Source: Carnobacterium viridans (GTDB lineage: Bacteria; Bacillota; Bacilli; Lactobacillales; Carnobacteriaceae). From it: a stretch of 64,000 nucleotides of DNA. Where the stretch lies: NCBI RefSeq assembly GCF_900102725.1, contig NZ_FNJW01000008.1:558001-622000 (forward strand), given 5' to 3'. Below the pieces are notes generated by a model. The model searched no databases. It was not told where the DNA came from and saw only the letters and a program-made list of their open reading frames with translations. Positions 28,840-56,821 of this stretch are shown piece after piece. The position numbers and the translations under genes were made by a program. Every line of letters begins with the position of its first letter. The first letter of the stretch is position 1.

Positions 28840-29195
28840 AGTAAGCACACTGAATCTTAGTTCGACTAACTCAGAATCACTTTCCGTTTGAGTTGATGCA
28901 ATGAGCCTTAGTTCGACTAACTCAGATTCATTTCTCATTTGAGTTGATGCAACGAGCCTTAATTCGACCAACTCAAATCCATTTCTCGTTTGAGTCGATG
29001 CAACGAGCCTTAGTTCGATTAACTCAAATCCATTTCTCGTTTGAGTTGAGGCAATAAGCCTTAATTCGATTAACTCAAATCTATTTCTCATTTGAGTTGT
29101 TACAATGAGCCTTAGTTCGATTAACTCAAATCCATTTCTCTTTTGAGTTGATGCAATGAGCCTTAATTCGATTAACTCAGAATCGCAATCCAAAT
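28840..29195 (-). repeat. Array 1: seven tandem 51-bp units
   Basis: Seven units of 51 bp, read on the minus strand as GAGTTAATCGAATTAAGGCT, CATTGCATCAACTCAAACG, AGAAATGGATTT. Each unit contains AACTCAAA and TTTGAGTT about 11 bases apart, giving one short hairpin or operator-like palindrome per unit. Because 51 is divisible by three, a frame repeating ELIELRLIASTQT stays open, but it has no ribosome site. The unit is the same family as array 2 at 48285. It lies between the metQ end and the VOC start. Confidence 0.9.
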
Positions 29196-47197: not shown

Positions 47198-47231
47198 TTC
47201 TATTTTGCGTACCTTATTTAAGAGGGGGTGG
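47198..47231 (+). promoter_or_regulatory. NERD-1 leader motif and ribosome site
   Basis: CTATTTTGCGTACCTTA at 47200-47216 differs by one base from the motif before the second NERD gene (55867-55883). The flanks are also alike from AAG to the ribosome site. AGGGGGTGG (47223-47231) is the ribosome site. A clear -35 is not seen. Could be an operator or a conserved leader. Confidence 0.6.
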
Positions 47232-48151
47232 AAATTATAATAGTAGTCAAAAAAAGGAACAAATCGAATTATTTACTTACCTTGGAAGCTCTAGATAAAC
47301 GGATGGTACTTTCTGATGAGGAAAGGATTCATTTGTTGAATATGCAAAAAGGATTTGAAGGAGAGATCTTGTTTGATTCGCTGTTGGAAGAATATTTAGA
47401 TGGGGACGCATTAGTATTGAATGATTTATTGTTTACAGAAAAAGGCAGCACATTTCAGGTTGATGCATTGATTCTGATAAGCGGCAAAATCTTGTTGTTT
47501 GAAGTAAAAAATTATGAAGGAAATTTTAAATTCAACTCACATCAATTCTTAACATTTTCTGGCAAAGAAATCGTTAACCCATTGAATAAATTGGACGAAA
47601 CTTCTATCAAAATGCGGCAATTGTTGAATATGTGGAATATTAATCTCCAACTTGATTCTGTCCTCATTTTTGTAAATTCGGCTTTCACACTGTATAACGC
47701 ACCAATCGATAGTCCAATTATTTTCCCCACACAAATTCGAGAGCACTTTTCCAAAATGAATAGAAGTGCTTTATTATTATCGGAAAAACATCACTACCTT
47801 GCGGATAAAATAATGAAAGAGCATCAAAATGAATCAGCTTTTCAGCATAAGTTTCCGAATTATACGTATGATTCCCTCAAAAAAGGATTATGGTGTATCA
47901 AATGCGGCTCTCCAGATGTAGTAATTACTCAACGAACCAGCTTCTGTAAAGCGTGCGGTCATCGAGTAGCAGTCGAAGAAATAGCATTGCGTCAAGTAGA
48001 AGATTTCAAATTATTGTTTCCTGATTCGAAAGTAACTACTCCTATTATATATGATTGGCTTGGTTCCACTATTCCAATGGCAAGAATCCAAAAAATATTA
48101 GTAAAAAATTACAAAATTTGTGGAGTCACATATGGTTCCTATTACGAATAA
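47228..48151 (+). CDS. NERD-domain protein with zinc ribbon and C-terminal DNA-binding-like tail (NERD-1)
   Basis: About 305 residues. The NERD (nuclease-related) domain spans about 35-160: GFEGEILFDSLLEEY, LNDLLF, FQVDALILI and LLFEVKNYEG give the D...E-x-K nuclease core. A four-cysteine zinc ribbon follows (CIKCGS, CKACGH). The C-terminal EDFKLLFPDSKVTTPIIYDW looks like a helix-turn-helix. It is a clear paralogue of the gene at 55904. Alignment puts its start at ATA 47240, 8 bases after AGGGGGTGG; the only upstream NTG is a GTG (47228) within that site. Function unknown. A 13-unit repeat array follows directly. Confidence 0.75.
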   Translation: MEIIIVVKKRNKSNYLLTLEALDKRMVLSDEERIHLLNMQKGFEGEILFDSLLEEYLDGDALVLNDLLFTEKGSTFQVDALILISGKILLFEVKNYEGNFKFNSHQFLTFSGKEIVNPLNKLDETSIKMRQLLNMWNINLQLDSVLIFVNSAFTLYNAPIDSPIIFPTQIREHFSKMNRSALLLSEKHHYLADKIMKEHQNESAFQHKFPNYTYDSLKKGLWCIKCGSPDVVITQRTSFCKACGHRVAVEEIALRQVEDFKLLFPDSKVTTPIIYDWLGSTIPMARIQKILVKNYKICGVTYGSYYE

Positions 48152-48172
48152 AAAACCCTTATAAAAGACGTA

Positions 48173-48254
48173 GATACTCGTCACCAGACGAGTATCCTCC
48201 GATTAAGTACTTTCTATCAAGTTCATTTTGGCATTATCACTTAGATAGTGCCAT
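48173..48254. terminator. Two hairpins between NERD-1 and array 2
   Basis: GATACTCGTC / GACGAGTATC is a perfect 10-bp stem (48173-48196). TGGCATTATC / GATAGTGCCA (48230-48253) is a second stem with one mismatch pair. Neither has a long T-run, so terminator function is uncertain. Confidence 0.5.
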
Positions 48255-48284
48255 TTTAAGCGTGTATTCTGCTCTAAGTTATTC

Positions 48285-48965
48285 GAACCGAAGCTCGTTA
48301 CGTCAACTCAAACAAAAATCGGACTTGAGTTAATCAAACTAAAGCTCGTTATGTTAACTCAAACGGAAATCGGACTTGAGTTAATCGAACCGAAGCTCGT
48401 TACCTTAACTCAAACAGAAATTGACTTTGAGTTAATCGAACTAAAGCTCGTTACGTCATCTCAAACAGAAATCGACTTTGAGTTAATCGAACTAAAGCTC
48501 GTTACGTTAACTCAAACGGAAATCGGTCTTGAGTTAATCGAACTAAAGCTCGTTACGTTAACTCAAACAAAAATCGGACTTGAGTTAATCGAACTAAGAC
48601 TCGTTACGTCAACTCAAACGGAAATCGGACTTGAGTTAATCGAACTGAAGCTCGTTACGTTAACTCAAACAGAAATTGACTTTGAGTTAATCGAACTAAA
48701 GCTCGTTACGTCATCTCAAACAGAAATCGACTTTGAGTTAATCGAACTAAAGCTCGTTACGTTAACTCAAACGGAAATCGGTCTTGAGTTAATCGAACTA
48801 AAGCTCGTTACGTTAACTCAAACGGAAATCGACTTTGAGATGATAAAACTAAGACTCGTTACGTCAACTCAAACGGAAATCGACTTTGAGATGATAAAAC
48901 TAAGACTCGTTACGTCAACTCAAACGGAAATCGGCTTTGAGATGATAAAACTAAGGCTCAAATAA
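48285..48965 (+). repeat. Array 2: thirteen tandem 51-bp units behind NERD-1
   Basis: Units read GAGTTAATCGAACTAAAGCT, CGTTACGTTAACTCAAACG, GAAATCGGACTT. The pair AACTCAA and TTGAGTT recurs around a 13-base spacer, and TTGAGTTAA / TTAACTCAA forms a second nested palindrome. A block of about 164 bp (48405-48568) is repeated exactly at 48660-48823, five units later. The frame ELIELKLVTLTQT stays open because 51 is a multiple of three, but it has no ribosome site. The last units diverge (GAGATGATAAAACTAAG). Confidence 0.92.
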
Positions 48966-50887: not shown

Positions 50888-51104
50888 TATTTCTGGAGGA
50901 ATAGGGTTTGCTTGTAGCCATGCAAAGGATTCAATGCGAATTATATAGCGTTAATGCTTCAGCGATTACGCTATATTTGAGGCTTGAAAGCTCTGAAGAC
51001 TATGAACTTTAGGCTTCAGACGTTCCCATGGCTCTCCACAAGCAAACCCGCCTATTCCAGAAGAAATTTTATTTTATTCTAAACAACACCATTGATGAAG
51101 AGCT
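50888..51104 (-). repeat. MITE-like repeat, short form (copy E)
   Basis: Minus-oriented relative to copies C and D: starts ATTTCTGGAGGAATAGGG at 50888 and ends TTCCAGAAGAAATTTTATTT, AACAACACCATT, GAAGAGC. The interior matches copy C (GCTTCAGCGATTACGC, CTTCAGACGTTCCCATGG). The distal TCAACACT end is not evident on the left. Confidence 0.8.
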
Positions 51105-53753: not shown

Positions 53754-55805
<2,052 letters not shown>

Positions 55806-55841
55806 TCTACGGTACACAATACAAGTAAATACTAAATAAAT

Positions 55842-55903: not shown

Positions 55904-56821
55904 ATGCTGTATAAAAAACGTGAAAAATCTTGCAAATTGCTTATAATGGAGTCTTTGATCAGTCGGACTGACTATTCCAAGGAGGACTACGATGAGTACC
56001 AAAAACAAGTAAAAGGTTATGAGGGTGAATGTTACTTCGACATACTGATTGCGGGATTGACTTGTGACTGTCTTGTATTAAATGATTTACTATTAGAGAT
56101 TCATGGTACTGAATTTCAAATTGACGCGTTAGTGATCACTGCACGAGAGATTTTACTTTATGAAGTAAAAAATTATGGCGGGGAATACCTACATAAAGAG
56201 GGATTTCTAGTATCTATCCCTTCAGGCAATTCCTTCCACAGCCCCACAGAAAGAATCAACCGACATACATCCTTATTGCAAAGCTTATTAGAAATACACC
56301 ATCTAAAAATGCCTATCGAACCTTTTGTAGCGTTTGTCCATCCTGAATTTATGCTGTATGACACATCAACTATACAAAAAGTATTGATGCGAGCAACTTT
56401 TCCAAAACATTTCAGAAAGTTGAATACACAATCCGATTCTCTTTCTAAAAGACACTACCTGCTCGCAGATAAATTATGCGAACTATCTTCTCAAACGAAT
56501 AGGTATTTAAAAGGTGTGCCTGAATATACTTATGAAACCTGCAAAAAAGGAATCATTTGCTCAGAATGCAGACAATTCATTCCAAAAATTGCACCTAAAA
56601 GTAAAACTTGCACATGCTTAGTATGTGGGAATATAGAACGTGTTTCAGCTGCCATTTCAAGGCATATTTTAGAATACAAACGATTGTTTCCAGAGAGAAA
56701 AGTTACGGTATCCAATATCTATGATTGGTGCGGCGGAGTTTGCCCAGTGAGAAGGATTCGATCCGTCCTACAAAAAGAATACAAGCCAGCAAGTGTAGGG
56801 CGAGCACTGCATTACGTATAA
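55904..56821 (+). CDS. NERD-domain protein with zinc ribbon and C-terminal DNA-binding-like tail (NERD-2)
   Basis: A 305-residue paralogue of the gene at 47228. NERD core: GYEGECYFDILIAG, LNDLLLE, FQIDALVIT and LLYEVKNYGGEY, keeping the D...E-x-K residues. Four-cysteine zinc ribbon CSECRQ ... CLVCGN and a C-terminal LEYKRLFPERKVTVSNIYDW with a helix-turn-helix look. ATG 55904 is chosen, with AGGAG 8 bases upstream. Repeat array 3 lies in front and inverted units lie behind. Function unknown; DNA binding or cutting at repeats is a hypothesis. Confidence 0.78.
   Translation: MLYKKREKSCKLLIMESLISRTDYSKEDYDEYQKQVKGYEGECYFDILIAGLTCDCLVLNDLLLEIHGTEFQIDALVITAREILLYEVKNYGGEYLHKEGFLVSIPSGNSFHSPTERINRHTSLLQSLLEIHHLKMPIEPFVAFVHPEFMLYDTSTIQKVLMRATFPKHFRKLNTQSDSLSKRHYLLADKLCELSSQTNRYLKGVPEYTYETCKKGIICSECRQFIPKIAPKSKTCTCLVCGNIERVSAAISRHILEYKRLFPERKVTVSNIYDWCGGVCPVRRIRSVLQKEYKPASVGRALHYV

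Follow-up and report, generated by a model that had tools for sequence, protein, structure and literature searches.

REP palindromes are thought to be propagated by RAYT (TnpA-REP) proteins, which are Y1 enzymes of the HUH type, and in type III toxin-antitoxin systems RNA repeats are found upstream of a ToxN-type toxin gene. Another class of bacterial repeats, described by Subirana and Messeguer (PMC8161180), comprises satellites with units of 52 nt and of 20-21 nt, which are constant in size and variable in sequence. According to the parts of that paper cited here, these satellites are non-coding, belong to several unrelated families per genome, and carry short signals together with their reverse within one repeat; the 20-21-nt units correspond to two turns of the helix, and a few 40-41-nt repeats are related to this class. 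Bacillus coagulans and Paenibacillus are described there as rich in the 52-nt repeats. The same parts state no function and no known interacting protein for the satellites; a polymerising protein and a stabilisation of the nucleoid are proposed for the 52-nt repeats, with the protein left unnamed. NERD-domain proteins appear in a different context, in the section of PMC10910872 in which the FLSHclust analysis lists NERD among the putative CRISPR auxiliary genes. No paper joining NERD to these satellites was found in the open-licence literature, and the word NERD is absent from the main texts of PMC8161180, PMC6749651 and PMC8625621.

The window analysed here is a 64-kb stretch (C8:558001-622000) of a 2.76-Mb genome. 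It contains a 307-aa ORF with a GTG start (47228..48151, + strand), designated NERD-1, which encodes a NERD domain, a Cys4 zinc ribbon and a predicted winged-helix tail. The NERD domain (aa 41-148; 47348..47671, +) matches the Pfam family NERD (PF08378) with an E-value of 5.8e-14 and 53 bits, against a cut-off of 22.1, and includes Q77, D79, E92 and K94 of the PD-(D/E)XK-like core. In the homologue alignment, D79 is found in 146 of 146 proteins, E or D at position 92 in 144, K94 in 143 and Q77 in 134; judged by motif, D79, E/D92 and K94 would form a catalytic core of the PD-(D/E)XK type. The zinc ribbon (Cys 223, 226, 240 and 243; 47894..47956, +) is recognised from the conservation of its cysteines, present in 145, 146, 146 and 146 of the 146 homologues, respectively, and from PDB sequence matches over this part, led by the zinc ribbons found in RNA polymerase subunits (E 7e-4). 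Pfam zinc-ribbon families match NERD-1 below their cut-offs only.

The structure model of NERD-1 is of modest confidence (mean pLDDT 64, with blocks of the tail at 66-90). The stretch from residues ~236-250 to 307 of this model aligns with Z-alpha and PefI domains (best Z 6.2), which we take to be winged helices, and aa 245-307 (47960..48148, +) are accordingly predicted to form a winged-helix DNA-binding tail. Structure searches with the same modest model place the N-terminal half of the protein near R2 endonuclease, AddAB and Exo5 with scores that are not strong: PD-(D/E)XK nucleases are among the top rows in Foldseek, none of them at E≤0.001, and VIA-align gives Z of about 5 against AddAB and Exo5. 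A first-pass annotation, made from the sequence, had read the gene as NERD, zinc ribbon and HTH-like tail, in this order, and had taken this order to suggest a protein that binds and possibly cuts DNA. The first two domain assignments are borne out by the Pfam match and by the four near-invariant cysteines, and the third is backed by the modest-confidence model in the form of the predicted winged helix. Upstream of NERD-1 is a gene for a PTS EIIC protein, and downstream, in convergent orientation, a GDSL-type gene; no Cas gene was found among these two neighbours and no Y1 transposase among the Pfam matches of NERD-1, which consist of NERD and sub-threshold matches.

Behind NERD-1 lies a 51-bp tandem array of 13.4 copies (48277..48959, +; TRF score 920, period 51), which begins 126 bp past the stop codon and agrees with the 13-unit array described earlier as starting about 130 bases behind the gene. 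The palindrome that had been reported in its unit is also present, as an inverted repeat with arms of 9 bp around a 20-bp spacer (p=0.02 relative to 100 shuffled sequences), and alignment of the units reveals a 36-bp interrupted dyad in each of them (TGAGT..AAY.A mirrored). The 13 units are near copies of one another, with multi-unit blocks repeated, such that units 3-5 resemble units 8-10. No hypervariable spacer block was seen in 214 aligned units of the NERD-1 type, which share conserved and drifting columns. The suggestion of an acquisition site, in the sense known from CRISPR, was rejected on these two grounds, the repetition of unit blocks and the lack of spacers. A 204-aa ORF that runs through the array (48351-48965) is probably an accident, because 51 is divisible by three while related arrays have 52-bp units; a coding function of the array was likewise rejected, as related arrays have units of 52 or 41 bp.

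The window contains two further features on which the first-pass annotation was silent. One is a second array of the NERD-1 repeat family, identified by TRF and repeat search (28849..29184, - strand; 6.6 copies), at a distance of ~18 kb from NERD-1. The other is NERD-2 (about 55907..56818, +, stop codon excluded, start uncertain), a paralogue with ~35% identity and the same architecture, together with a 52-bp tandem array (55482..55819, +), which the TRF rows place 85-161 bp upstream of NERD-2 and which is unrelated in sequence to the NERD-1 array. The NERD-1 repeat family occupies six places in the window genome, including 28849-29184, and each of the six genomes of the genus carries it at anything from several to many sites. 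Four of them encode an intact NERD-1 orthologue with 71-100% identity, followed by 13, 3, 12 and 2 units of the family, and the remaining two (G002 and G003) retain only NERD-1 remnants of 38 and 34 residues. The arrays of G002 and G003 are well formed, with within-array identities of 0.83 and 0.79, like those in the other genomes, and no array decay after the loss of NERD-1 was seen there. NERD-1 is therefore dispensable for holding the arrays over that time, or else a paralogue serves in its place. It had been pointed out beforehand that widespread arrays in genomes without a NERD gene would speak against the link, and this is the case only in part: same-family arrays do occur far from NERD-1, but only in the genus that has or had this gene (six of six genomes, versus none of 12 other genomes of the family). 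A single scan of genome contigs yielded one relative with a name, from Bacillus sp. MUM 116.

The pairing of NERD genes with tandem arrays is near certain. A first set of loci, picked by protein match alone before any search for arrays and representing a subset of the listed matches, comprised stretches of up to 20 kb around NERD homologues (60, plus the window and locus L013, 62 in all), which together contain 62 full-length homologues; ORFs of at least 200 aa in the same stretches, more than 2 kb from any NERD gene, served as controls (n=505). An array with a period of 35-500 bp was found within 300 bp of 45 of the 62 homologues and of 23 of the 505 control ORFs (Fisher p about 2e-35), and one with a period of 35-60 bp within 300 bp of 37 and 13, respectively (Fisher p about 2e-30), with p values that ignore kinship, as loci within a clade are not independent. 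The comparison of homologues with control genes that the first-pass annotation had proposed thus turned out strongly positive.

A wider set consisted of 146 non-redundant homologues from 71 genomes, after removal of matches with E >1e-8 or fewer than 220 profile positions and of those whose core duplicated an earlier one. Of these, 142 had at least 500 bp on both sides, the four short-flanked ones being left out, and 107 of the 142 had an array within 300 bp (105 of 140 when the two window genes are not counted). Among the 35 array-less homologues, 20 showed a faint periodicity of 40-42 or 50-53 bp in their flanks, as opposed to 12 of 400 background draws. Arrays were found in all groups sampled, though less often in genus g20 and in the window's own genus: at 10 of 16 loci in the genus of the window, 14 of 17 in the rest of its family, 24 of 33 in the rest of the order, 36 of 38 in seven families from other orders of the class, 18 of 21 in three further families, and 5 of 17 in genus g20, which was sampled in part and whose later-added loci had few arrays. 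The array was located only downstream of the gene in 78 of the 107 cases, only upstream in 23 and on both sides in six; for arrays close behind NERD genes (84 loci), the median gap was 48.5 bp.

Smaller samples gave mixed results. In six new homologues with more than 200 profile positions, an array with a score of at least 100 was found within 300 bp in three, which is below the 60% level set beforehand, in a sample of few loci; two more arrays lay at 331 and 341 bp, the latter with a score of 98, and by the pre-set length criterion the count was two of three. The main periods in this extra set were 82, 40, 43/83, 31 and 21, and one locus also had 22- and 49-bp rows. No arrays were found beside four matches to the NERD part only or beside one fragment. 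Random stretches (400 kb) from genomes with NERD genes contained four 35-60-bp arrays, all with periods of 51-52 bp, of which three have inverted repeats on visual inspection and one is part of a coding-type repeat, versus two arrays with periods of 36 and 38 bp in 400 kb from five genomes that had no single-sequence match, two of which (G018 and G020) show weak profile matches; this difference is not significant alone. Arrays of 61-500 bp in these stretches differed in the opposite direction, nine in the NERD-less genomes and one in the NERD genomes. Five of the nine long-period arrays resemble one CRISPR array.

Single-sequence searches find the protein family in at least 46 of 246 genomes from the order to which the window belongs, and in at least 38 of 398 from the class. 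The family profile found no match in six genomes of one family, and matched at least 233 of 299 genomes sampled from another order, a count of profile matches as such, with or without the full architecture or an array. The family is therefore not a curiosity of one genus.

The length of the repeat unit is quantised. An array lies within 300 bp at 110 loci, and at 101 of them its period does not exceed 104 bp; where a locus had several TRF rows, the period used is the shortest one that scores no less than 30% of the best row. These periods fall into classes of 20-21 (two loci), 40-42 (21), 50-53 (64), 61-63 (eight), 82-83 (three) and 103-104 bp (three), and the six class means, entered by hand, phase-lock at 10.3-10.4 bp with a vector strength of 0.99. 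This value is the helical repeat of B-DNA. The nine other loci have longer periods, of 226-344 bp. On a quick tree of 146 proteins with some long branches, the class of four, five or six turns (93 tips) changes only three times, as compared with at least 20 and on average 26.5 changes in 200 shuffles. Unit length is therefore a trait of the protein clade. On the same tree, the side of the array changes 10 times and its presence 29 times.

The sequence of the unit likewise follows the protein. Where the unit measures 49-54 bp (66 loci), units compared across genomes have a similarity of 0.688 if their proteins are more than 70% identical (12 pairs), 0.499 at 60-70% identity (19 pairs), 0.445 at 50-60% (59 pairs) and 0.415-0.438 below 50%, with shuffled units at 0.417. 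Paralogues within one genome have units with a similarity of only 0.433 (50 pairs). The repeat thus tracks the gene and not the genome.

We aligned 214 units of the NERD-1 type from about 43 places in six genomes. They share two conserved boxes, TGAGT and AA(C/T).A, that are mirrored over 36 bp with unpaired columns between them. The covariation excess about the dyad axis is 19.1, followed by 5.3 for the next axis (mean over all axes 0.40, sd 3.73). At the pair of columns 13-22, G-T and C-A mismatches are equally common (20 units each), which gives no hint of RNA wobble at this pair; the point does not hold uniformly, as G-T is commoner than C-A at pair 15-20 (41 versus 4). An inverted repeat at p≤0.05 is found in 26 of 51 unit consensi.

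The same dyad positions distinguish the genomes from one another. Among 36 variable columns, a genome signature (p≤0.01) is confined to columns 7, 13, 22 and 28 (41 place consensi, the row for L077 merging two single units), which make up the covarying dyad pairs 7-28 and 13-22. At the latter pair, for instance, T-A is found in six of seven places in G002 versus C-G in eight of 12 places in G004. Scattered arrays have changed together at specificity-like bases and drifted elsewhere, and this joint change is attributed to a shared trans-acting reader, because wholesale copying would even out all columns. A point against a simple version of this explanation is that G002 has no intact NERD-1. Genome-wide homogenisation of the arrays was considered and found to be only slight: the distance between arrays is 0.228 within the same genome, 0.240 at the same site in other genomes and 0.244 for the rest (p=0.013). 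Taken with the helical phasing and the lineage pairing, the covarying dyad symmetry supports the part of the first-pass annotation that saw the array as a binding site, and specific binding of the protein to its own repeat is likely.

All 43 arrays of the NERD-1 type lie between mechanically called ORFs, with ORFs more than 40% inside an array excluded as spurious. The gaps that they occupy are convergent in 16 cases, tandem in 24 and divergent in three, as compared with 23, 63 and 31 of 117 background gaps, so divergent gaps are under-used (3 of 43 versus 31 of 117). In the tandem context, ten arrays run along the neighbouring genes and 14 run against them. Copy number differs between species at shared sites (13, 12 and 3 units; 12 versus 1-2 units), and at the 28.8-kb site of the window there are 7, 5 and 2-3 units in G000, G004 and G005, respectively. 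Arrays beside the gene at this site are also found in G001 and G003, with none in G002. This partial conservation of array sites between species fits a host function as well as propagation. In a neighbourhood common to G000 and G004, the array is in one gap in one genome and in a nearby gap in the other, and neither clean borders nor a target duplication were seen at these shifted arrays. A clean insertion site was also sought at the VOC-DHFR gap, where the comparison of filled and empty sites is complicated by a gene duplication.

The best explanation of these observations as a whole, and one that we consider probable, is that a trans-acting protein reads its own satellite, so that NERD-1 and the array are one two-part system. 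NERD-1 would recognise the interrupted palindrome in each unit, most likely as a dimer, and units spaced by whole helical turns (five in this case, four or six in other clades) would place the dimers on one face of the DNA. Its action would be in trans and would reach every array of its repeat family, whether next to the gene or elsewhere in the chromosome. Cutting or nicking within bound arrays could start recombination or repair and lead to their expansion and contraction, and new arrays might be seeded now and then, the satellite being propagated by its nuclease, broadly in the way proposed for REP palindromes and RAYT proteins but by an unrelated enzyme. Several observations weigh against the explanation as a whole: the persistence of well-formed arrays in G002 and G003, the lower share of array-bearing loci in genus g20 and in the window's genus, the nine loci with long periods, the occurrence of arrays on both sides of the genes, the three of six in the extra set and the modest confidence of the structure model. 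Such propagation is the mechanism that we prefer, with a probability somewhat short of even, and a structural role in the host is its chief rival. Extended to the family, it would make the proteins with NERD, zinc ribbon and winged helix satellite-making nucleases, each of which recognises a single palindromic unit, measures spacing by the helix turn and, by cutting or nicking its arrays, drives their amplification and spread in the chromosome; we put this forward as a tentative generalisation.

In the structural alternative, the arrays are docking sites that serve the host in nucleoid or chromosome architecture, replication or repair; the NERD protein would coat the phased arrays at a set of intergenic sites, with a nuclease domain that is structural or rarely used. 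The helical phasing of the units agrees with such a role, as do the retention of several sites between species and the position of the arrays, 43 of 43 between ORFs with divergent gaps under-used; the genome-wide dyad-base change shared by otherwise drifted arrays looks like selection to stay bound. However, near-invariant catalytic residues are unexpected in a purely structural protein, the array occupies different neighbouring gaps in related species, and the presence of up to at least nine matches per genome, with unrelated repeats for paralogues (50 pairs), suits selfish or arms-race evolution better. We regard docking sites as a serious but rather unlikely explanation, well behind the best one.

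A role in anti-phage defence, in which the array would store or calibrate a nuclease directed at invading DNA and serve as sponge, self-mark or decoy, appears improbable. It would account for the several paralogues per genome with different repeats, and the NERD domain does have weak partial matches to PglW, MADS6 and MkoA; in PADLOC, however, only partial NERD-domain matches were obtained (best 4.3e-05), none of them full-length, NERD-1 is flanked by genes for a PTS transporter and a GDSL-type protein, and dispersed arrays far from the gene are left unexplained. Searches of 50,697 phage and 72,556 plasmid records at E≤1e-5 gave nothing that matches NERD-1, although a defence gene need not occur in them, and neither did two scans of viral contigs with short exact patterns, by which relatives can be missed. 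Carriage by phages or plasmids was rejected on the same searches of plasmids, phages and viral contigs.

We consider it slightly less probable still that the arrays function through their transcripts, a repeat RNA by which the NERD protein is guided or restrained in the manner of CRISPR RNA or of the antitoxin in type III systems. Transcription of the 52-nt repeats is reported for Bacillus coagulans in the portions of PMC8161180 and PMC8625621 used here, arrays often follow NERD genes at the short median distance given above, and NERD is on the list of putative CRISPR auxiliary genes; this last entry may, as a guess, stem from such arrays misread as CRISPR. Against an RNA, the unit lengths follow the 10.3-10.4-bp turn of B-DNA, the unpaired columns interrupt the dyad and hence preclude a continuous hairpin, arrays between tandem genes run with (10) or against (14) their neighbours and may be on either side of the NERD gene, and there is no spacer-like block. 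An RNA hairpin in particular is disfavoured by the interrupted dyad, the inconsistent orientation and the B-DNA phasing. The last alternative, that NERD genes and repeats are bystanders that merely share repeat-tolerant intergenic zones, might draw on the 35 of 142 homologues that lack a TRF array within 300 bp and on the persistence of arrays in two species with NERD-1 remnants only, but is strongly disfavoured, and very improbable, in view of the enrichment over same-stretch controls, the repeat-protein lineage pairing and the clade-specific unit length.

If the preferred reading, a protein that reads and propagates its own satellite, is correct, NERD proteins would supply the partner that has been lacking for the 52-nt (perhaps also the 20-21-nt) satellites of Bacilli, and bacterial satellite DNA would have an enzyme of its own, as well as a route to dispersed repeats that is independent of HUH enzymes. 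If the protein only binds, the arrays would represent a new kind of phased nucleoprotein array. In either case, a candidate protein family is named for the satellites, with a prediction of which repeat each member reads, and the constant unit length is explained as a whole number of helical turns.

Compared with the satellites of Subirana and Messeguer, the NERD arrays have the same constant unit of 51-53 nt, and also units of 20-21 nt, with unrelated sequences even within one genome, those of the NERD-1 type are likewise intergenic (43 of 43), and inverted repeats are found in the 26 of 51 NERD-array consensi, with dyad covariation in addition. When 26 of the 27 consensi in Table 1 of PMC8161180 were compared with the NERD arrays, the 52-nt consensi resembled some of them (best 0.72 versus 0.57 for shuffled sequences). 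In contrast to those satellites, the arrays described here are tied to a protein family, and their length classes, a trait of the protein clade, include 40-42, 61-63 and 82-83 bp as well.

With REP/BIME elements and their RAYT proteins, the system shares a chromosomal DNA enzyme, dispersed intergenic palindromes (a feature examined for the NERD-1 repeat) and a separate repeat family for each enzyme lineage, but it employs a NERD-type domain instead of a Y1/HUH one, and helical-turn tandem arrays with a duplex-site dyad instead of a hairpin. NERD-1 resembles other NERD-domain proteins (PF08378) in a match well above the cut-off, whereas its fixed architecture of ~300 aa, with NERD, zinc ribbon and predicted winged helix, sets it apart from them. 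Similarly, an array beside a nuclease-like gene recalls CRISPR and other hypervariable arrays, yet the NERD arrays lack spacers and repeat blocks of several units, and, unlike type III toxin-antitoxin loci, they are downstream only in 78 of 107 cases and are paired with a NERD protein. The repeats thus belong to a known class, and what is new is the two-part system of protein and array.

A second array of the NERD-1-type repeat, the family of the tandem array behind NERD-1, lies in the window at 28849-29184, flanked by two genes that we named by eye, one as VOC-type and the other as lipoprotein-like. When the same gene that adjoins this array was compared across the other five genomes of the genus, it was adjoined by arrays in G001, G003, G004 and G005, and no array was found beside it in G002. 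A tandem duplication of 121 bp in another genomic stretch (L009, 6102-6352) shares its gap with a NERD-1-type array and differs from it in sequence.

The second NERD gene of the window, NERD-2 (55907-56818), has its own 52-bp array on its upstream side (55482-55819), which is unrelated in sequence to the NERD-1-type repeat. At three further loci (L117, L119 and L095), the repeats on the two sides of the NERD gene are identical or almost so, which places the gene inside the array. The window's own genome carries an additional NERD paralogue (C8:1101392-1102266; stretches L079 and L033), which is split into two matches in different frames, and remnants of NERD-1 were identified in G002 (C6:695037) and G003 (C3:247226).

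Judged by eye, the stretch at 50890-51080, which carries gggtttgcttgt close to one end and acaagcaaaccc close to the other, resembles part of an insert in G004 (L277, about 2600-2810) and is perhaps a small dispersed palindromic element. In genome G018, tandem repeats of about 64-65 or 192-195 bp were called five times (L132, 4822-11557); these calls have a common start of nearly 29 bases and look like an ordinary CRISPR array.
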